Part shown: positions 21,473 to 48,153 of the stretch, piece by piece
Layout of the letters: each line of letters begins with the position of its first letter
Position numbering within the stretch: position 1 is the stretch's first letter
Assembly (NCBI RefSeq): GCF_000384815.1
Contig: NZ_ARQF01000020.1
Coordinates: 186,001-250,000, forward strand
Origin: Halodesulfovibrio aestuarii DSM 17919 = ATCC 29578
GTDB taxonomy: Bacteria; Desulfobacterota; Desulfovibrionia; Desulfovibrionales; Desulfovibrionaceae
Direction of reading: 5' to 3'
Length of the DNA: 64,000 nt
The notes under the pieces: model-generated
Databases searched by the model: none
What the model was told of the DNA's origin: nothing
Seen by the model: the letters and a program-made list of their open reading frames with translations, nothing else
Made by a program: the position numbers and the translations under genes

Positions 21473-22381
21473 TTACTCTTTGCTCCTAGCAACAGCCTGC
21501 TGTCCATATATTCCCATACCGATGGCAAAAAGGACAAGTGCCACACCGACAAGACCGTGGGTACCTGTAGGACGTTTAAAGAATATGACGTCCCATACGA
21601 AAGCAAGAGCAGGCTGTAAGAGCATCAGAAGCCCTGCAATGGCAGCCGGCAACTTCGGAAGTCCCTTGGATATAAATGCCCAGCCTATTCCTTGGCAAAA
21701 TACGCCATAAAGAATGAGGTAAAACCAATCGCTGACTGTTGGGATAACGAATGAATCACCTGTTGCCCCCATGGATACGCCGACACTTAGAGCTGTTATG
21801 AGAGAAATTATGCCCATGTTAGCAAACAAGGGCAGCTTTTTTTCTGTAAACTGCGATTGGCGTAAACAAATCAAATAACAAGAATAGGACACGGCCGTGA
21901 GAAATCCGAAAAGGAGTCCCCATAAAATATCTGAAGACACTTCGTGCAGGTCCAGACCAATAAGAAGGAATAAACCGATTACGGCTAACGGCAACGCTAC
22001 GATGAGCCGCTTGGATATTATTTCTTTAAAAAGAAGTGCACCAAATGCAGCCGTGGCAAAGACTTGCAGGTTACCCAGAATAGTTGCCAGCCCCGGCCCA
22101 ACGTAACCGATGGCGCGGTGCCAGCATTTAAGATCAAAAGCAAAAAATAGCCCTGCCAGTACCACCAGCCCCCATATACGAAGGGGGACAGAGAAACGTT
22201 CGCGCCTGATAAAAGAAATAATCATAAGGGTGATGCCACCAAACAATACGCGATAAAAGGCAGAACTGTCAGGAGACACGCTGGTTAAACGCACCAACAC
22301 TGGCGAAAAACTAATAATTAAGGCACCGATTGGTACTACAATATATGGCGAAGAAAAAAACGCCTTCAAACGCTGGAGCAC
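21473..22381 (-). CDS. DMT-family (EamA) transporter
   Basis: 302 residues from GTG 22381, whose first base is shared with the TAG stop of the upstream gene; AGGAGA lies 6 bases before it. Ten hydrophobic helices in two EamA repeats (first with FSPVLVRLTSVSPDSSAFYR, second with LFGFLTAVSYSCYLICLR). Such transporters export amino acids or metabolites; the substrate cannot be told. It is translationally coupled to the GGDEF-TPR gene. Confidence 0.9.
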   Translation of the reverse strand: MLQRLKAFFSSPYIVVPIGALIISFSPVLVRLTSVSPDSSAFYRVLFGGITLMIISFIRRERFSVPLRIWGLVVLAGLFFAFDLKCWHRAIGYVGPGLATILGNLQVFATAAFGALLFKEIISKRLIVALPLAVIGLFLLIGLDLHEVSSDILWGLLFGFLTAVSYSCYLICLRQSQFTEKKLPLFANMGIISLITALSVGVSMGATGDSFVIPTVSDWFYLILYGVFCQGIGWAFISKGLPKLPAAIAGLLMLLQPALAFVWDVIFFKRPTGTHGLVGVALVLFAIGMGIYGQQAVARSKE

Positions 22382-24786
22382 TACAATTCTCCTGCCTTCA
22401 CAAGCGCCTGATGCGCATCCTGTTTTTTGCCGCATGCTTCTAACGCACGGGCAAGCTGGAGCCATGCTCCTTTAAAATCCGGTCGCAATGCTGCTGCCTG
22501 TCTGGCAAGCACCTCTGCAATTTCAGGATCCTCTCCCCCATCCAGATAAATTCGCGCCATTAACTCCAGTGCAACCGCATCCTGTGGATTATAGAGTAAC
22601 GCCTGATGAAGATGTTCACGAGCTTTATCCGGATTGTCTTCCTTCATGCATAAGCGGGCAAAGTTACGCTCCACAAGAGGTTTATTTTCTTCCAAGGCAC
22701 GGGCACGTTCAAAGAACATACGCGCTGTGGAAAAATCGTTCTCCATTTCATTCACCTGTCCAAGGCGGATAATAGAGAAAAAATGCTTCTCATCATGCAA
22801 AAGGCAGTTGTCATAGTATTTGCGGGCAGCTTTAAAATTACCGAGAGTCTGCGATATATGACCGAGGTTATACAAAGCCATCACATCGTCTTCATCACGG
22901 GCAAGAGCACCTTCAAAATGCTTACGCGCCTCTTCCGGACGCCCTAACCCCGCGTAACACACTCCAAGAGAGTTCCACGCCATAGTATTATCTTCATCTG
23001 CAAGCAGCGCACGCTTATACTCTTCAATGGCACCAAAAGAGTCATTCTTGGAATACAGCTTGTCTGCACTGATGTTGAGCGCAAGCGAATCAAGAATCCC
23101 GACACGGGGAACAGGAAGCAACATGGCATATTCGAGCGCTTTCAAACAGCACTCCAACGCATCACCTTTACGATAATCGAGGTAAGGATAACAGAAAATA
23201 CCCACTGCCGCCTCGATCCCTAAATTTGTCAACAACCGTTCACACAGCTCGTTAAAAAGGATTTGCACAAACTCCGGCTTTCCTTCCGGATAGAAACAGA
23301 TAAGGGAGTTTAAACCATATCTGCCGCCAATCATATCATTACCCAAAATATCACGGCATTGCTGAGTTGCTTCCGCTAAAACCTGTTCCCCTGCACCACC
23401 TTGCACGTGCGGAATACGGGAAAGACGAATAAGCGCAAGCGCGAAAGAATCGGTCGCTTCCCGTTCTTTAGTGAATCGGGCAATAAAATCTCTGTGCTTG
23501 TAAAGCCCTGTGAGCGAATCAAGCTGTTCAGCCTCTTTATCCTTCTCAACTGTTACGCCAATGCCTTTTTCTTCCGGCAACAACTTGATGGTATCGGTTG
23601 GTTCCACTGCCCATGTAGGATCGCCCATATGCATAATCTCTGCAATAGAGTCTGCTTCACGAACCTCCATGAGCACAAGTTCACCTTTATAGAGAGGGTG
23701 TCTGTTAATGAGAGAATCTGCGGGGACGCCGTTGGCGTACGTGGAGTCATAATTATTTGACCAGATTGAAAAACGCTGCCCTTCGCGTGCGCCCATTGCC
23801 CCCCCCACATCAACCACTACACGGTTGACAGGAAGTACTTCACGAATAGTTCCACCTTCGTGCAACAAACGGTTAAAGCCAAGTACATGCGGAATAAGAA
23901 GAGATTCACCAAGACGTTTTGCTACACCTGCCCCGATACGTGATTTGCGGAGCAACAAGCGGCTTTGCTCTTCACTCTTCAGTTCAAACTGTGCGCCCTC
24001 AAAATCCTGAGGAAAAGCAGCATACCCTGCAGCTATATCAACGCCTACACGATGTTCTGTAATGCTATGAACTTTTTGAACAGACCGAAGAGTACGGACG
24101 GCTTCAGCTGCAATTTTTCTGCACGCGCTCGATGTACCGGCCGGTATAAGAATTGCGTATTCATAATCACCACTGCTGCACACAAAAGCCTGCTCCGGCG
24201 CGACAGATTTCAGGGAATCTGCAAACTGCACAGCCAACTCTTCTGCAAAGAGATGACCAAATTCTGTCTCAACAGAACGAAGACCTGAAAGATCAAGCAA
24301 CACGACACCGACGGTGGCACGATACTCTTCACTCCCTGCGGTACGCCGTTCTCCGGAAAGATGAAAGCCTTCACGGATCATGCTAATTTCACGGTTAGCT
24401 GCATGATGCAGATAGTCGCGGGTAAACAATCCGTTTTGCGCATTGGTTATGCTGGACTTTACGCCCTGAATCTTTTCAAGAGCCAGTGTTGCCACTGCCG
24501 GCAGAGTTGAAACCAGAGTCTTTGGCGCGCGAATGGTCACGCCTCTGGCCACAAATTGCCCGTAAAATTTATTATTCATGACAAGAGGGAGCAAAAGCTT
24601 TTTTTCTTTTGCATCCCATATAGCCTCAAGACTTTGTATTTTTCTAGGAAAATACAAACTGTACGATGAAAAATTGATAATAGATTTGATCGATTCAGCG
24701 AGTAGATGCTCATAGGTTATGAGATCATATCTGCTTAATTGTGTCCGCTCTGAATTCAGAATATCTATTTGCGTTTTCATAACCAT
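22381..24786 (-). CDS. Degenerate GGDEF-like and TPR protein
   Basis: 801 residues, soluble. Two GGDEF-type cyclase domains seem to be present (about 120-260 and 430-560): the first begins NGLFTRDYLHHAANREI and has SSGDYEYAI where GGDEF should be; the second begins DSLTGLYKHRDFIARF and has IGGRYGLNSL. Both lack the catalytic acidic pair, so they are unlikely to make c-di-GMP. From about 600 there are at least six TPR repeats (AWNSLGVCYAGLGRPEEARKHFEGAL and similar). A scaffold or c-di-GMP-responsive role is possible. ATG at 24786 or 24780; no clear ribosome-binding site. Confidence 0.8.
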   Translation of the reverse strand: MVMKTQIDILNSERTQLSRYDLITYEHLLAESIKSIINFSSYSLYFPRKIQSLEAIWDAKEKKLLLPLVMNNKFYGQFVARGVTIRAPKTLVSTLPAVATLALEKIQGVKSSITNAQNGLFTRDYLHHAANREISMIREGFHLSGERRTAGSEEYRATVGVVLLDLSGLRSVETEFGHLFAEELAVQFADSLKSVAPEQAFVCSSGDYEYAILIPAGTSSACRKIAAEAVRTLRSVQKVHSITEHRVGVDIAAGYAAFPQDFEGAQFELKSEEQSRLLLRKSRIGAGVAKRLGESLLIPHVLGFNRLLHEGGTIREVLPVNRVVVDVGGAMGAREGQRFSIWSNNYDSTYANGVPADSLINRHPLYKGELVLMEVREADSIAEIMHMGDPTWAVEPTDTIKLLPEEKGIGVTVEKDKEAEQLDSLTGLYKHRDFIARFTKEREATDSFALALIRLSRIPHVQGGAGEQVLAEATQQCRDILGNDMIGGRYGLNSLICFYPEGKPEFVQILFNELCERLLTNLGIEAAVGIFCYPYLDYRKGDALECCLKALEYAMLLPVPRVGILDSLALNISADKLYSKNDSFGAIEEYKRALLADEDNTMAWNSLGVCYAGLGRPEEARKHFEGALARDEDDVMALYNLGHISQTLGNFKAARKYYDNCLLHDEKHFFSIIRLGQVNEMENDFSTARMFFERARALEENKPLVERNFARLCMKEDNPDKAREHLHQALLYNPQDAVALELMARIYLDGGEDPEIAEVLARQAAALRPDFKGAWLQLARALEACGKKQDAHQALVKAGEL

Positions 24787-24963: not shown

Positions 24964-25476
24964 ATGTCCAATCCTGTTCTTACAGCATTACGAGAACGTC
25001 GCAGCATACGCAAGTATACGGATCGTGAAGTTAGCCGTGAAGAGATTACTGCCATGCTGGAAGCCGGTCGATGGGCTCCCAGCGGCAAAAACAATCAACC
25101 TTTCCGTTTTATTGCTATCCGCCGGAATGATCCACGAATTGACGGATTAGCAGATTGCACGATCTACTCACATATCGTACATAATGCTGCTCTGATGATT
25201 GGCGTTTTTCTCGACAAAAGCAGCCTGTACCATGAACTAAAAGATCATCAGTCTGCTGGCGCTTGTGTCCAGAATATCATGCTTGCAGCACATTCCCTTG
25301 GTCTTGGCTCTGTATGGTTAGGACAAATGATGAATAATGCCGAACAGGTTCTTGATGTTCTCTCTCTCGATTCTGACAAATATGAATTCATAACTTTTAT
25401 TGCCATCGGCGAACCTGCGCAGGAGGGAACTGCCTCACGCAAACCGCTGAAAGATATTATGCTGGAGCAATTTTAA
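24964..25476 (+). CDS. Nitroreductase-family flavoprotein
   Basis: 170 residues. RRSIRKYTDREV, AGRWAPSGKNNQPFRF and GLGSVWLGQM are the FMN-binding segments of the nitroreductase fold. AAGGAG precedes the ATG. The family reduces nitro compounds, quinones or flavins with NAD(P)H. It is first in a plus-strand group of redox genes; the stop overlaps the next start (TAATG). Confidence 0.9.
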   Translation: MSNPVLTALRERRSIRKYTDREVSREEITAMLEAGRWAPSGKNNQPFRFIAIRRNDPRIDGLADCTIYSHIVHNAALMIGVFLDKSSLYHELKDHQSAGACVQNIMLAAHSLGLGSVWLGQMMNNAEQVLDVLSLDSDKYEFITFIAIGEPAQEGTASRKPLKDIMLEQF

Positions 25477-26102
25477 TGCAAGTAAAAACATTCCCTTTAG
25501 GCCCGCTTGAGACAAATTGCTACGTTCTTTCCCACGAAGGGAAAGCTGTTGCAGTTGATCCGGGCGGAGAACCAACTGCAGTTATCGATTTTCTTAAAGA
25601 AGAAGATCTGACTCTGACTCATATTCTTGTTACCCATTTTCACTTTGACCATCTGTACGGAATCAAAGCACTGCAAGAAGCAACGGGTGCAACAGTTATC
25701 AGTGGCAGTGAAGATGTATTTCTTCTTGATTCAGAAGTCGGCCAAGGCGGTATGTGGGGCTTTCCTAAAGTTCCTCCGTTCAGCTTTACTTCCATTAATG
25801 AAGGCGACCACACATTCATGGATTTAGAATGTAAAGTGCTTGCTACTCCCGGACACTCTCCCGGAAGCCTTTCTTTTTACTTCCCTGCCGCAAAGGCAGT
25901 CTTTGTAGGTGATGTATTATTCTACCGCGCAGTTGGCCGCACAGATCTGCCGGGTGGTGATTTTGATGTTCTGAAAAAAGCTGTAACAGAAAAAATCTTC
26001 ACACTCCCACCGGAAACCGTAGTATATTCAGGTCACGGACCACAATCTTCCGTTAATGACGAACAAATCAATAACCCGTATTTTTCTGATTTCCAACGCT
26101 AA
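25476..26102 (+). CDS. Metallo-beta-lactamase-fold hydrolase (glyoxalase II-like)
   Basis: 208 residues. LVTHFHFDHLYG (HxHxDH), TPGHSPGSLSF, FVGDVLF and YSGHGP carry the dinuclear metal ligands. Short YcbL/glyoxalase-II-like proteins of this type hydrolyse thioesters. Its first base overlaps the nitroreductase stop, so the two are coupled. Confidence 0.9.
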   Translation: MQVKTFPLGPLETNCYVLSHEGKAVAVDPGGEPTAVIDFLKEEDLTLTHILVTHFHFDHLYGIKALQEATGATVISGSEDVFLLDSEVGQGGMWGFPKVPPFSFTSINEGDHTFMDLECKVLATPGHSPGSLSFYFPAAKAVFVGDVLFYRAVGRTDLPGGDFDVLKKAVTEKIFTLPPETVVYSGHGPQSSVNDEQINNPYFSDFQR

Positions 26103-26141: not shown

Positions 26142-26225
26142 AAATACTGCCAAATCATTAAGATAAAATTAGCATGTTGGATTAAAAACGTTACTATACG
26201 GACTAGTCATCAATCTGGAGTTACT

Positions 26226-26474
26226 ATGACGACACATATTGAAGACACAGAAACTGCTGTTGCAGATTTGCGGAATGGATGCTGAGGGTTGGGACTCGAG
26301 ATAAGTTTCTATCTCGGTTTTCAGAAGAAGAACAGAGTCCTTCTTCTACTTCCTCCTCACTCACATGCTCCTCTTGAGTATGCATTGGAGAAATATCCTC
26401 AATGGCATTGCGAAATCCAAACAGATGACACCACAGAGCTTTCAGCTTTGTGCGAGCGTGTTGCAAAAAAATAA
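26226..26474 (+). CDS. Candidate selenoprotein with in-frame UGA (Cys-Sec motif)
   Basis: One frame runs from ATG 26226 to TAA 26472-26474 if TGA at 26283-26285 is read as selenocysteine, giving 82 residues. GGAG lies 5 bases before the ATG. The segment around the UGA is NGC-U-GLGLE, a Cys-Sec redox pair. The downstream part (RVLLLLPPHSH, QWHCEIQTDD, ALCERVAKK) continues in the same frame to a normal end, and a SECIS-like hairpin lies 11 bases after the UGA. The next gene starts 26 bases later behind a good ribosome-binding site, so the arrangement is operon-like. I do not recognise the family. Alternative: two unrelated short frames or a nonsense mutation. Confidence 0.65.
26297..26316 (+). 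promoter_or_regulatory. SECIS-like hairpin
   Basis: CGAGATA (26297-26303) pairs perfectly with TATCTCG (26310-26316) around the loop AGTTTC. The loop starts 18 bases after the UGA and has G at its second position. This agrees with the known bacterial SECIS rules (loop 16-37 bases from UGA, G among the first two loop bases). Confidence 0.65.
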
Positions 26475-26500: not shown

Positions 26501-27136
26501 ATGAACTCAACGCAATCTTTCACGAATGCTCTTCAAATATTAGGTTGCAGCGCCCGTAAAAATGGTAACACTGACGCCGCCGCAAAACTGTTTGCTCAAG
26601 GGTATGAAGCCGCTGGAGGACATACCCAGACGCAGTTTATGCGCGATTACACAATACGTCACTGTACAGCATGCGAAGCATGCGCGGTTCCCGGAAGCAC
26701 AAAATGTGTGCAGGAAGATAAAGACGAAAGTGCAGAACTCTATTCTATGCTTTTAGAAGCACCAGCAATATTTATCAGTTCACCGATTTATTTTTACCAC
26801 CTGCCGTCCATTTTCAAAACATTTATCGACCGCTGTCAGTGCTTCTGGTTCCGAAAACACAACCGCGACCCGTTCGTCCTTTCTCTTCCCCCCAGAAAGG
26901 CATACATTTGCCTTGTTGCAGCACGTCCTGTGGGTGCCCAACTCTTTCAGGGGTCTCTACTGACACTTAAATATTTTCTGTCACCGTTCAACATCAGGCT
27001 GGCTGAGCCACTCCTTATTTATGGCAAAGACGGCCCTACTGAACTAGCCAGTGATCCAATGACTGTTGAACAAATTCTTGAATACGCTAAAGCAGCGTGC
27101 AACGACACTGTACCTCTTTATTCAACTCAAAAATAA
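26501..27136 (+). CDS. NAD(P)H-dependent FMN reductase / flavodoxin-like iron-sulfur flavoprotein
   Basis: 211 residues from ATG 26501 with AAGGAGAG upstream. ILGCSARKNGNTDAAAKLF is the FMN phosphate loop, HCTACEACAVPG...C the Cys cluster typical of iron-sulfur flavoproteins, and ISSPIYFYHLPSIFKTFIDRCQ the flavin-ring contact. It probably transfers electrons between NAD(P)H, FMN and a small partner, perhaps the adjacent Cys-Sec protein. Confidence 0.85.
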   Translation: MNSTQSFTNALQILGCSARKNGNTDAAAKLFAQGYEAAGGHTQTQFMRDYTIRHCTACEACAVPGSTKCVQEDKDESAELYSMLLEAPAIFISSPIYFYHLPSIFKTFIDRCQCFWFRKHNRDPFVLSLPPRKAYICLVAARPVGAQLFQGSLLTLKYFLSPFNIRLAEPLLIYGKDGPTELASDPMTVEQILEYAKAACNDTVPLYSTQK

Positions 27137-27153
27137 TATCCGGACACCAGAAT

Positions 27154-27996
27154 ATGCATAGTGTTTTTGCTTTACTCAAGAGTACTGCCGCCTTTCTGGG
27201 ATTAGATGAAACCCGTTGCGTATCTTGCTTTGCGCCATACAGCCCTCTTACGGATATTTCGTTTCGTTCTCTTTACGAAGAGCAGCTCACTACACCTGAA
27301 AAAACTGAATACAGTGAAAGGCTCCATCACCAATGGAGCCTTTCACTACAACTATGTCCGGATTGTCTGCGGCAACTGGCACCGCGTACACAAGGGTATT
27401 GCCCATCCTGCGGCATGCTGTACGCAAAAGCTTCCGGAACGCCATCGCGCTGTTCTTCCTGTATGATTACACCACCCCCATGGACACACATAACACTCTA
27501 CGGAGCCTACGAAGGCATTCTGCGGGAATTGCTTCTCAAACATAAATTTCATAACAGGCTTGATGCAGGGCTTACCCTTGCCCGATTGCTTGCAACCAAA
27601 TATTATCCTCTCGCAATTACACCTGCCGCAGTTGTACCGATTCCGTTACATAGCTCACGGCTACTGCATCGCGGACATAATCAGAGCATGCTGTCCGCCA
27701 AACTCCTCGCACAAAAAATTAACGCTCACCTTATGCCCGAGTTACTCCAAAGAAACCGTGAAACAACACCTCAAGCAACCCTAAGTAAAAAAGAACGCAA
27801 CCGGAACCTTTCCGGCGCGTTCACTGCAACTATTCCTTCAGCACTCAAAAACACCCATATCTTACTTGTAGATGACATCGCCACAACCGGCTCAACGTTA
27901 CGCCAGGCAGCTAAAGCTCTTCTTTCCGGTGGCGCAGGCTCGGTTGAAGTGGCGATTATGGCGCGAACGCCTGAACCTGAAAACGTGATCAGATAA
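27154..27996 (+). CDS. comF: ComF-family phosphoribosyltransferase-like protein
   Basis: 280 residues. Zinc-finger pairs CVSC...CPDC...CPSC...CSSC occupy the N-terminal half; the C-terminal half has HILLVDDIATTGSTLRQAAKAL, the PRPP-binding loop. ComF proteins are linked to DNA uptake or recombination. The start at 27154 has only a weak ribosome-binding site. It contains a perfect 15-bp inverted repeat at 27313-27347. Confidence 0.9.
   Translation: MHSVFALLKSTAAFLGLDETRCVSCFAPYSPLTDISFRSLYEEQLTTPEKTEYSERLHHQWSLSLQLCPDCLRQLAPRTQGYCPSCGMLYAKASGTPSRCSSCMITPPPWTHITLYGAYEGILRELLLKHKFHNRLDAGLTLARLLATKYYPLAITPAAVVPIPLHSSRLLHRGHNQSMLSAKLLAQKINAHLMPELLQRNRETTPQATLSKKERNRNLSGAFTATIPSALKNTHILLVDDIATTGSTLRQAAKALLSGGAGSVEVAIMARTPEPENVIR
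27313..27347. repeat. Perfect inverted repeat inside comF
   Basis: AGTGAAAGGCTCCAT (27313-27327) and its exact complement (27333-27347), 5-base loop. It is coding sequence for the spacer between the first two Cys pairs. Confidence 0.8.
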
Positions 27997-39835: not shown

Positions 39836-39862
39836 TTGCCAAGCACCGTCGTTACGCATAAA
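39836..39862 (+). promoter_or_regulatory. tRNA-Leu cassette 1 promoter
   Basis: TTGCCA-N15-CATAAA, conserved with the same spacing in all three cassettes. Confidence 0.6.
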
Positions 39863-39933
39863 AGCTTTTCCGCGTTAAGGAACAACAACCTAGCGCAACC
39901 TCAGAGTGACGCACTAGCGAAGCTCATATAAGT

Positions 39934-40019
39934 GCCCAGGTGGTGGAATTGGTAGACACGCTATCTTGAGGGGGTAGTGGGCCACGCCCGTGGGAGTTCG
40001 AGTCTCCCCCTGGGCACCA
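39934..40019 (+). tRNA. tRNA-Leu(GAG), copy 1
   Basis: 86 bases with encoded CCA. Acceptor GCCCAGG/CCTGGGC, anticodon stem CTATC/GGTAG with loop TTGAGGG (anticodon GAG), long variable arm (class II), T-arm GGGAGTTCGAGTCTCCC. A ~70-base leader with a hairpin at 39872-39896 precedes it. Confidence 0.97.
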
Positions 40020-40029
40020 TGCACTTATG

Positions 40030-40062
40030 AAAAGATCATACGAAAGTATGATCTTTTTTTTT
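40030..40062 (+). terminator. tRNA-Leu cassette 1 terminator
   Basis: AAAGATCATAC-GAAA-GTATGATCTTT then T-run. The same hairpin follows all three copies. Confidence 0.93.
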
Positions 40063-40557
40063 GGGCTTCTTTTGAAACTATCTTTTTTTATTAAAAAATA
40101 TCTTCCTCTCTTTCGCTCCCCCCTTTTCGTTACCTTTTTTCGCTACGACCAACTAAAAAAATTCCATTTAAATTAAGTATGTTGAGACAACATACAAGAC
40201 TCATCTCTCTTTCATTTAAAAACATAATCACGAGAGATACTTCATTATTTAGAAGCGCCACACATTTGTAACCGCATACATTAATTAACAATCTATCTTG
40301 CAACGATAATAACTAATAAAAAACGATGTTTTTTCCACAATCAAAACAGCAAGTTAGTTTTTATACAACAGGAACAATTTTTTTGAAATAAAAGTAAAAA
40401 AAATGCAGGAAACGATTGACCAACCCGCCCATCGCATATATGGTTCTTTAATCGTATTTACATCGTGCTTCAATTGCCCTCGGGTTTGTAGCACACACGC
40501 CCCCAACAAAGTTTACTTTGTGGTGGGGGGACAATCCTTTCTTTGGAGTTTTTTGTT
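40063..40557 (+). other. 495-bp AT-rich leader region of the RRM gene
   Basis: No gene. The last part (40500-40530) folds as CCCCCA/ACAAAG with CTTTGT-GG-TGGGGG around a TTTA loop, a 12-bp helix with a GG bulge ending 15 bases before the ribosome-binding site. Confidence 0.5.
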
Positions 40558-42136: not shown

Positions 42137-42163
42137 TTGCCAAACGAGTGTAATACACATAGA
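42137..42163 (+). promoter_or_regulatory. tRNA-Leu cassette 2 promoter
   Basis: TTGCCA-N15-CATAGA, matching cassettes 1 and 3. Confidence 0.55.
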
Positions 42164-42234
42164 TACAATTTCCGCGTTAGGGGAAAAAACTTAACGCGTC
42201 CTCAGAGCATCGCGCAAGCGAAGTTCATATAAGT

Positions 42235-42320
42235 GCCCAGGTGGTGGAATTGGTAGACACGCTATCTTGAGGGGGTAGTGGGCCATGCCCGTGGGAGTTC
42301 GAGTCTCCCCCTGGGCACCA
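42235..42320 (+). tRNA. tRNA-Leu(GAG), copy 2
   Basis: 86 bases with encoded CCA; identical to copy 1 except one C-to-T change in the variable-arm loop (GGGCCATGCCC). Anticodon GAG. Confidence 0.97.
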
Positions 42321-42330
42321 TGCACTTACG

Positions 42331-42362
42331 AAAAGATCATACGAAAGTATGATCTTTTTTTT
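42331..42362 (+). terminator. tRNA-Leu cassette 2 terminator
   Basis: Same AAAGATCATAC-GAAA-GTATGATCTTT hairpin with T8. Confidence 0.93.
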
Positions 42363-43011
42363 GGGCAATTATCCCCCGTTCATGACACACAAAACAGCCC
42401 GCAAACAATCAAACGTTCTTACTGCCAATAATTCCCACCCGCTCTTCATGAGCAAATATGGCATAAAATATGATCGGCAAACGGTTGTTACAAGCTTTGA
42501 AGCGTCACACATTATGAATCAATCAGCGATTCAAATCATCAATTAACTCGCTTCACTCTATCAGCGTGCAGACAAAACTATGTTCGTTTGACATCTGAAG
42601 AAACACTGTGTTCGTCTGATTGAAAAAGCAGATAAAATCTGTATTGCGAACGGACTTGAAGATACAGACCACGTTGTCTCAACTGACTGAAATCATAACT
42701 ATCAAAAATCTATTGCAACTGCAGTTTCATAACTTTTCCGCAAGCATTTACTACTTAAGAAAAGAGTTAGTTACAGGGATAACTAACTCTTTTTTTATTA
42801 TACTTACCTATTTTGTAAGACTGTACGTTTCTTACAACCATTTTATTTTACTACATTCCAATGTTGCCAACATAAAATTGACTTTATATTCTAGACAACA
42901 ACACGAAATTGACTCTTTATTAACTACACTATAAATACTAGAGGCGACCTTACATGTCATAATTAACAGTCATTACATGTCATATATAGATTTCTTTAAC
43001 AGGAAGATACG
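42363..43011 (+). other. 649-bp intergenic region with decayed-looking frame and orphan terminator
   Basis: No intact gene. One frame (42421-42690) is interrupted only by TAA 42544 and TGA 42589 and ends in a coding-like stretch (RLIEKADKICIANGLEDTD). An unassigned terminator follows at 42761-42797. Confidence 0.4.
42761..42797 (+). terminator. Orphan terminator
   Basis: AGAGTTAGTTA (42763-42773) pairs perfectly with 42780-42790, followed by T7. It is 400 bases after the tRNA terminator and 215 before the next gene. Confidence 0.8.
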
Positions 43012-47150: not shown

Positions 47151-47651
47151 TTACTTCAGCATACCGCCGTTCATCATTAACGGTATAGTCATAGGCATCA
47201 TCATCCCATCTTTCATAGCCATAGGCATCATCATGCCTTCCTTCATCATTATTGGCATCATCACCATAATTCCATTGTTCATCACTACAGGCATCATCAT
47301 ACATTCCATATTCATATCTTTCATCAGCATAGACTTATTGTTAGTACCTTTCATCATCGGCATCATCATTCCATCTTTCACCATCATAGGCATTTTCAAC
47401 ATACTGCCTTTCATCATCATCATAGGCATTTTCATGTCTTTCATCATCATGCCGTCTTTCATCATCATCGGCACCATCGAACCATCTTTCATCGTCATTG
47501 GCATAAGCGTACCATTAGGAGCCATCATCATCATAACCATACCGTTTTTCATCATCGGCTGCTTCACCATCATGTCTTGCTTCATTGCAAGTGATGACAC
47601 TGCGATGCACATAACTAATGCTGTTGCTATAAAAAATCGTACAAGCTTCAT
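47151..47651 (-). CDS. Extremely methionine-rich secreted protein
   Basis: 166 residues from ATG 47651 (AGGGAG 6 bases upstream). Residues 1-22 are a signal peptide ending SSLA. The mature ~144 residues contain about 60 Met (42%), in repeats of the type MMKDGMMMPM, with Lys, Asp, Gly and Pro between and a single Cys (NMECMMM). There is no known domain. Met clusters bind Cu(I)/Ag(I) in CusF, CopA and PcoE-type proteins and can also scavenge oxidants; either role is inferred. It has its own terminator and lies just before tRNA-Leu cassette 3. Confidence 0.85.
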   Translation of the reverse strand: MKLVRFFIATALVMCIAVSSLAMKQDMMVKQPMMKNGMVMMMMAPNGTLMPMTMKDGSMVPMMMKDGMMMKDMKMPMMMMKGSMLKMPMMVKDGMMMPMMKGTNNKSMLMKDMNMECMMMPVVMNNGIMVMMPIMMKEGMMMPMAMKDGMMMPMTIPLMMNGGMLK

Positions 47652-47799
47652 GAAAATCTCCCTATCAATATGTTGACCCATCGCCTTAATCTCCTCACTC
47701 AAAAGCAAATACAAGGTACATACTACCTCATCATCAAGACATCACAACCATGGTATTTTGATTCGCATCATTCTTTCTTCAAAAAAAAATAAAAAAAGC

Positions 47800-47826
47800 T
47801 TGCCAAATGGAAGCAATCCGCATAAA
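47800..47826 (+). promoter_or_regulatory. tRNA-Leu cassette 3 promoter
   Basis: TTGCCA-N15-CATAAA, as in cassettes 1 and 2. Confidence 0.6.
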
Positions 47827-47896
47827 CAAATTTCCGCGCTAAGGAACAACAACTTAGCGAACCTCAGAGTGACGCACTAGCGAAGCTCATATAAGT

Positions 47897-47982
47897 GCCC
47901 AGGTGGTGGAATTGGTAGACACGCTATCTTGAGGGGGTAGTGGGCCACGCCCGTGGGAGTTCGAGTCTCCCCCTGGGCACCA
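47897..47982 (+). tRNA. tRNA-Leu(GAG), copy 3
   Basis: 86 bases with encoded CCA, identical to copy 1. Anticodon GAG. The 60 bases before it are almost identical to cassette 1. Confidence 0.97.
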
Positions 47983-47992
47983 TGCACTTATG

Positions 47993-48022
47993 AAAAGATC
48001 ATACGAAAGTATGATCTTTTTT
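47993..48022 (+). terminator. tRNA-Leu cassette 3 terminator
   Basis: Same hairpin as cassettes 1 and 2, followed by T6. Confidence 0.92.
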
Positions 48023-48153
48023 CCCGCAACGCTTTCTTCCAGAAGACCGGTTCTCCCAAAAGCACATTTTTCACCCCGCCTTAACCAGTCTGTAACATTA
48101 GTGATCTATCTACCTCATCACCCTGATAACACTAATAAAAGGACTGAAAAACA

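Follow-up and report, generated by a model that had tools for sequence, protein, structure and literature searches.

A probable selenoprotein of an apparently unnamed Desulfovibrionales family, with a predicted TusA-like fold and a Cys-Sec pair, encoded beside a flavoprotein gene

We analyzed a 64,000-nucleotide stretch of the genome of the marine sulfate reducer Halodesulfovibrio aestuarii DSM 17919 (contig NZ_ARQF01000020.1, positions 186,001 to 250,000; hereafter the window), in which a short forward-strand gene at 26226-26474 encodes a predicted protein of 82 residues with selenocysteine (Sec) at position 20. Its ATG at 26226 lies 5 nt downstream of a ribosome-binding site, GGAG (26217-26220, forward strand), and is followed by 19 codons, an in-frame TGA at 26283-26285 (forward strand), 62 further codons, and a TAA at 26472-26474. 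The codon preceding the UGA is TGC, which gives a Cys-Sec pair within the motif DLRNGCUGLGLEISFYL, and the next ATG, at 26501, begins 26 bases past the TAA. An earlier, sequence-only reading had proposed this 82-residue frame with its ATG, ribosome-binding site, TGA at codon 20, and TAA, as well as the Cys-Sec pair and the 26-base gap, and all of these were found in place.

The gene is part of a forward-strand block with the order nitroreductase, MBL-fold hydrolase, selenoprotein, FMN reductase, and ComF. The first member, at 24964-25476, encodes a nitroreductase (Pfam Nitroreductase, 6e-29), and the second, at 25476-26102, an MBL-fold hydrolase of the glyoxalase II/persulfide dioxygenase superfamily, whose closest relatives are small MBL and hydroxyacylglutathione-hydrolase-like enzymes and which is less close to persulfide dioxygenase. 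Downstream of the selenoprotein gene, 26501-27136 encodes a flavodoxin-fold FMN reductase (Pfam FMN_red, 1.4e-14) that carries CX2CX2CX7C and resembles iron-sulfur flavoproteins; the last gene, at 27154-27996, encodes a phosphoribosyltransferase (Pfam Pribosyltran, 1.4e-8) that we take to be ComF-like. A GGDEF/TPR-like gene, labeled from its translation, is divergent from the block (22381-24786, reverse strand). The redox neighbors in the sequence-only reading, a nitroreductase and an FMN reductase, are present, but the nitroreductase gene is not adjacent because the MBL-fold hydrolase gene lies between. Elsewhere in the window, three near-identical tRNA-Leu(GAG) genes occur within ~8 kb; with its flanks, each forms part of a 212-nt repeat (39853-40064, 42154-42365, and 47816-48027; 84-86% like the first). 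In addition, a 187-residue Met-rich ORF (47151-47714, reverse strand) has MMKDGMMMPM repeats and a signal-peptide-like stretch near its start.

A putative bacterial SECIS (bSECIS) hairpin begins after 11 bases past the UGA (26297-26316, forward strand). Its 7-bp stem (26297-26303, CGAGATA, with 26310-26316, TATCTCG) is perfect, and its loop (26304-26309, AGTTTC) starts 18 bases from the UGA and has a G at position 2, all as previously described from the sequence. The published rules call for 16-37 nt to the loop, a G among the first two loop bases, and an MFE of -7.5 or lower (PMC13188914). The hairpin folds at -12.7 kcal/mol, with a single-sequence z of only -1.6. When we considered the 51 TGA codons in the window that are preceded by at least 10 codons counted from an ATG and followed by at least 50 open codons, 8 passed the bSECIS rules as coded here. 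Just one of these eight, the Sec candidate at 26283-26285, lies mostly outside ORFs of at least 130 residues. By itself, the window is thus moderate evidence, and it is the homologs that make the evidence decisive.

A first search found a match in 69 of 149 genomes of the taxonomic family to which the window belongs, and a profile built from 30 members found one in 141 of 247 genomes of the order Desulfovibrionales. The best match has an in-frame TGA in 139 of these 141 positive genomes; the two exceptions are G205, which has a Cys form, and G083, which has a Cys paralog only. Orthologs are borne by 140 genomes, with TGA in 139 and Cys in one. We checked directly that the TGA is exactly at the Sec site in 83 loci with distinct sequences. 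Homologs with Sec or Cys aligned at the UGA, which the sequence-only reading had asked for, thus exist. Residues D14, R16, Sec20, G21, E25, Y29, L30, and W60 are invariant in the 30-member alignment, with G21 replaced by R, H, or A in farther members, and the motifs DxRxxCUG and ExxxYL are conserved, one on either side of the UGA. The residue directly before Sec is Cys in 61 of the 62 loci with Sec and Gly in one member; two loci in this count, L138 (a chance upstream TGA) and L121 (a contig edge), were read by eye, and both are CUG.

We also looked beyond the order. Among 395 genomes drawn from the phylum there were 6 matches, all within the window's taxonomic family. A protein search of viral contigs returned no relative, and neither did an alignment-based search of genome contigs, probably because its patterns spell Cys codons rather than TGA. 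A TGA-containing DNA pattern, run over one genome each of 84,980 species, identified at least 31 contigs, a number that is not exhaustive because the pattern is exact; a family member is present in 31 of 31. Thirty of these contigs carry the names of Desulfovibrio-group organisms, and one is labeled only as Proteobacteria bacterium (L132). As judged by these searches, the range of the family found so far is Desulfovibrionales only.

The hairpin is retained in relatives. Its loss would have spoken against the sequence-only reading; instead, the published bSECIS rules are passed by the window's gene and by 76 of 83 distinct homologous sequences (7 fail), and the stem covaries. The stem has its full seven pairs in 73 of the 83 and at least six in 78, counts that are not independent trials because the sequences are related. 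When synonymous codons were redrawn with the protein held fixed, a complete stem arose in few of the 16,600 draws, 2.3% under uniform and 3.5% under weighted codon choice. Against the same redraws, the mean energy z of the 83 sequences is -2.6 (uniform) or -1.6 (weighted), and energies fall under their own control means in 83/83 and 80/83 for the two synonymous controls. Covariation is visible at pair 15/26 (GC in 37, AT in 27, and GT in 19 sequences) and at pair 11/30 (GC in 76 and CG in 5). The 83 sequences were chosen by a motif pattern that admits only Cys or Gly at the position preceding Sec and only G, R, A, or H at the one following; this set is therefore silent on the residues flanking Sec, which the pattern restricts.

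The genome that contains the window encodes selB, at 386 bits over the curated cut-off, and a tRNA-Sec (84.6 bits, anticodon TCA). At threshold, selB is found in 217 of 247 genomes overall and in 137 of the 141 family-positive genomes. Among the remaining four, G211 has selB split over two contigs, while G109 and G200 (490 and 510 contigs) and G205 have none over the cut-off; absence from G205, a genome that is 85% complete, is likely. The G205 ortholog (L072:3875-4090, reverse strand) sits in the same gene block, in this genome without detected selB, and has CPC in place of CU, one inserted residue, and no TGA. L072 is a candidate natural Sec-to-Cys switch, and no other Cys ortholog was found among the 141 positive genomes. 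In six congeneric copies, dN is lower than dS on either side of the TGA (19 codons upstream, 62 downstream), with several dS values saturated or undefined and a short upstream part. We conclude from these comparisons that the UGA at codon 20 is almost certainly decoded as Sec by SelB and tRNA-Sec with the help of the downstream hairpin.

The family appears to be unnamed. None of the 30 members has a significant match in Pfam or NCBIfam (June 2026), the best E-values being 0.02 and 0.08 to families with unrelated names, and searching PDB sequences with the profile yielded just two hits, both attributable to chance. We noticed no matching motif or description in the 119-family selenoprotein table (Table 1, PMC13188914). 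Nor was the family found in the literature searched, which was mostly without subscription papers and supplements, where an earlier listing is possible. One named candidate, NF049953 (hypothetical protein DG), was rejected: its best score was 15 bits, elsewhere in the genome, against a cut-off of 130, and it matched none of the 30 members. Its motif, as given in two papers, is GUxG (PMC12013277 and PMC13188914), so it shares Sec followed by x-G with the window's protein, but it is a 172-position family with no match at the window's gene. The sequence-only reading, a selenoprotein of a family it did not recognize next to a flavoprotein gene, is supported.

Eight remote paralogs in the order (L075-L082) have Cys at the Sec site and are linked to the Sec family by hhalign with a probability of 98.9 (E 1.5e-17). 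They lie ~3.9-4.2 kb into each locus and show the motif DLREVCCGLVPAI; most have a C-terminal tail of PLNL..F or RLDTLDY. The Cys preceding the site is kept in 4 of the 8. These paralogs differ from the Sec family in having Cys, in their C-terminal tail, and in the absence of block genes, none of which was found beside L075-L082; ORFs around five of them showed no shared context that we recognized. Five of the eight, together with the Cys ortholog L072, were scanned and gave no noteworthy hit in Pfam or NCBIfam. Searched with the Cys profile, the window's genome yielded no match, in a run without a positive control, and the 395 phylum genomes yielded 5, four in the window's taxonomic family and one at threshold with internal stops. 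At L082:2443-4190, the Cys paralog starts directly after an ORF that we take, from its sequence, to be MnmE; with such a neighbor, a TusA-like function in the thiolation of tRNA would make sense.

An AlphaFold2 model of the protein (pLDDT 83.6, pTM 0.69) runs strand, helix, strand, helix, strand, strand and puts Sec 20 in the stretch that links the first strand to the first helix. This is the two-layer beta-alpha-beta-alpha-beta-beta fold of the TusA family, although other such folds score close. In VIA, the best structural neighbor is the TsuB domain of the thiosulfate importer (8k1r; Z 9.3, rmsd 2.5, 73 residues aligned), along with a SirA-like protein (3hz7; Z 8.7, rmsd 2.2, 70 aligned) and E. 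coli TusA (3lvj; Z 8.0, rmsd 2.8, 73 aligned); Smr (8.3), Alba (7.7), and IF3-C (1tig; 6.8), which have a like arrangement, are close behind. Foldseek E-values are weak (0.02 for 3hz7). The family thus resembles TusA/SirA-like proteins (PF01206; 3lvj, 3hz7, and 8k1r, at VIA Z 8.0-9.3) in predicted topology, in size, and in having a D with the presumed reactive residue six positions on, before helix 1. It differs in having Sec, a preceding Cys, and CUGxG or variants where the TusA family has CPxP, and its profile similarity is under the usual thresholds.

Sequence profiles were compared to examine this resemblance further. Pfam TusA (PF01206) matched none of the 30 members at E up to 1. With hhalign, the Sec family reached a probability of 31 against 25 TusA domains; the default alignment covers the C-terminal 44 columns, and with -mact 0 or -glob it extends to 67 columns with Sec on the TusA Cys, at low column confidence and the same probability of 31. 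The Cys paralogs reached 61 over 64 columns, Cys on Cys. Against a first TusA set, the probabilities had been 6.5 for the Sec family and 21 for the Cys paralogs; two TusA rows with stops (L154 and L179) were dropped, and for the values of 31 and 61 an out-of-frame TusA row (L163) was also removed and the alignment mode changed. A mixed profile of the Sec family and Cys paralogs scored 24.9 against TusA, whereas none of 60 column shuffles exceeded 16.0, a lenient control because shuffling also destroys secondary-structure order. We suggest that the protein is likely a single small domain of TusA/SirA-like fold, with Sec where TusA holds its sulfur-carrying Cys; this is based mainly on the structural model and its fold matches, with weak support from the profile register. 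The relationship to TusA is probably one of remote kinship rather than membership.

The gene block is widely conserved. Duplicate loci (L122, L123, L125, and L134) and the eight Cys paralogs were left out of the synteny counts, and the Cys ortholog L072 was included. FMN reductase lies downstream in 50 of 59 testable loci, the MBL-fold hydrolase upstream in 48 of 56, the ComF-like gene is present in 45 of 52, and the nitroreductase in 37 of 51, with a looser association for the GGDEF/TPR-like gene (25/44). MBL, FMN reductase, and ComF occur together around the family gene in 43 of 49 testable loci. The FMN reductase homologs of fetched loci have CX2CX2CXnC in 53 of 53 cases (50 after removing 3 duplicate loci), the kind of motif found in iron-sulfur flavoproteins. 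Nine distinct loci (five labeled Solidesulfovibrio, two labeled Desulfovibrio, L102, and L104, which shares its record with L123 and belongs to Desulfovibrionaceae) are without MBL/FMN reductase, and hence the flavoprotein gene is not always adjacent; the neighbors are unlike the block in the three of the nine that we inspected (L102, L104, and L129). From synteny, the FMN reductase is the probable redox partner of the selenoprotein.

How might such a pair work? Sec would act as the nucleophile on a sulfane sulfur or oxidized thiol substrate (persulfide or polysulfide), and the Cys before it would resolve the product to give a Cys-Sec selenylsulfide. The neighboring iron-sulfur-flavoprotein-like enzyme would then supply electrons to reduce the Cys-Sec bond, so that the pair would form a Sec-dependent persulfide/thiol reductase or a redox relay of sulfate reducers. 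We put forward this sequence of Sec attack, Cys resolution, and re-reduction by the flavoprotein tentatively, as the likeliest scheme but one that could well be wrong. More speculative still is the broader proposal that an order-wide, nearly Sec-only TusA-fold selenoenzyme and an iron-sulfur flavoprotein together reduce persulfides or polysulfides, or relay electrons, in sulfate reducers. The literature searched does not describe Sec or the TusA fold being used in this way.

The main rival to a Cys-Sec redox enzyme is a TusA-like chalcogen carrier, in which Sec would take up sulfane sulfur or selenium at a donor and pass it to an acceptor with no net reduction and the neighboring redox enzymes would be donors or acceptors. 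Sulfate reducers handle much sulfane sulfur, and TusA and the TsuB domain resemble the protein in fold and probably in where the reactive residue lies. A carrier, however, sits poorly with the replacement of CPxP and with a Cys before Sec that is nearly constant and would be superfluous for simple carriage, and none of the four scanned neighbor proteins is a sulfurtransferase. We regard this as a serious but rather unlikely alternative. A metal- or metalloid-binding protein, with Cys-Sec as a soft-metal ligand pair, is improbable: the review PMC13188914 links several of the selenoproteins it lists, CU-motif proteins among them, to heavy metals, but the fold here matches TusA-like domains, and a metal transporter or metalloregulator was seen in 0 of 4 scanned neighbor proteins.

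We also considered that there is no selenoprotein at all, i.e., that the UGA ends a 19-residue leader and a second product begins after it. A TTG-started ORF of 61 residues does lie downstream of the UGA in the window, and 53 of the 83 sequences have a start codon no more than seven codons past the UGA, with GTG or TTG at the second codon in 44. The other 30 have none within seven codons, though, and several features run across the supposed break. Conservation and dN < dS continue through the UGA, the predicted domain spans it, the SECIS stem covaries, and the stop is constantly TGA (139/141 genomes). In the homologs, a start can be assigned 13-21 codons upstream of the UGA (starts were assigned by script), and the conserved DxRxxC likewise precedes the UGA. 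The sequence-only reading had named later-starting homologs as a point against itself; on that point, the upstream starts and motif favor the reading, but starts just past the UGA do also occur. A later start is thus argued against by upstream conservation and the SECIS element, not for want of start codons, and we consider it very unlikely. A pseudogene or sequencing error can be dismissed, since the homologs refute it: the in-frame TGA recurs across 139 of the 141 positive genomes, single-contig ones included, and dN is lower than dS.

Taken as a whole, the best explanation, which we hold with good confidence, is a selenoprotein of an apparently unnamed Desulfovibrionales family with a probable TusA/SirA-like fold that may perform Cys-Sec redox chemistry with a flavoprotein. 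Two known systems invite comparison. Thioredoxin reductase has a GCUG tail at the C terminus of a large flavoenzyme; the window's member likewise has G-C-U-G with vicinal Cys and Sec, whereas the pair in this family is inside a small domain and the first motif position varies among members. YedF combines TusA-like and DsrE-like domains, is linked to selenium, and has CPxP and CGxC motifs, with no Sec form described in the accessible text (PMC5322559). It shares a TusA-like domain and a tie to selenium with the window's protein, which differs in being a single domain with Sec. Apart from this protein, the window's genome also encodes a TusA domain, within a 229-aa open frame.

The near absence of Cys orthologs bears on how such families are found. 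According to the deep-Sep study, Cys homologs now appear to exist for every known selenoprotein, and the method may miss those without (PMC12013277). With TGA in 139 of 140 orthologs and Cys in one, searches via close Cys homologs are likely blind to this family. Desulfomicrobium orale appears to carry a member (L086), and the deep-Sep screen of that species gave 0 new genes (PMC12013277). Selenoproteins and TusA-like folds are both known kinds; what is new, as far as we searched, is a Sec protein of predicted TusA-like fold that bears a Cys-Sec pair at this site and whose family uses Sec almost exclusively throughout an order. The finding would enlarge the selenoproteomes of a well-studied group by one family and may represent a Sec form of a sulfur-carrier fold, and it comes with a conserved gene block that is testable in culturable strains.
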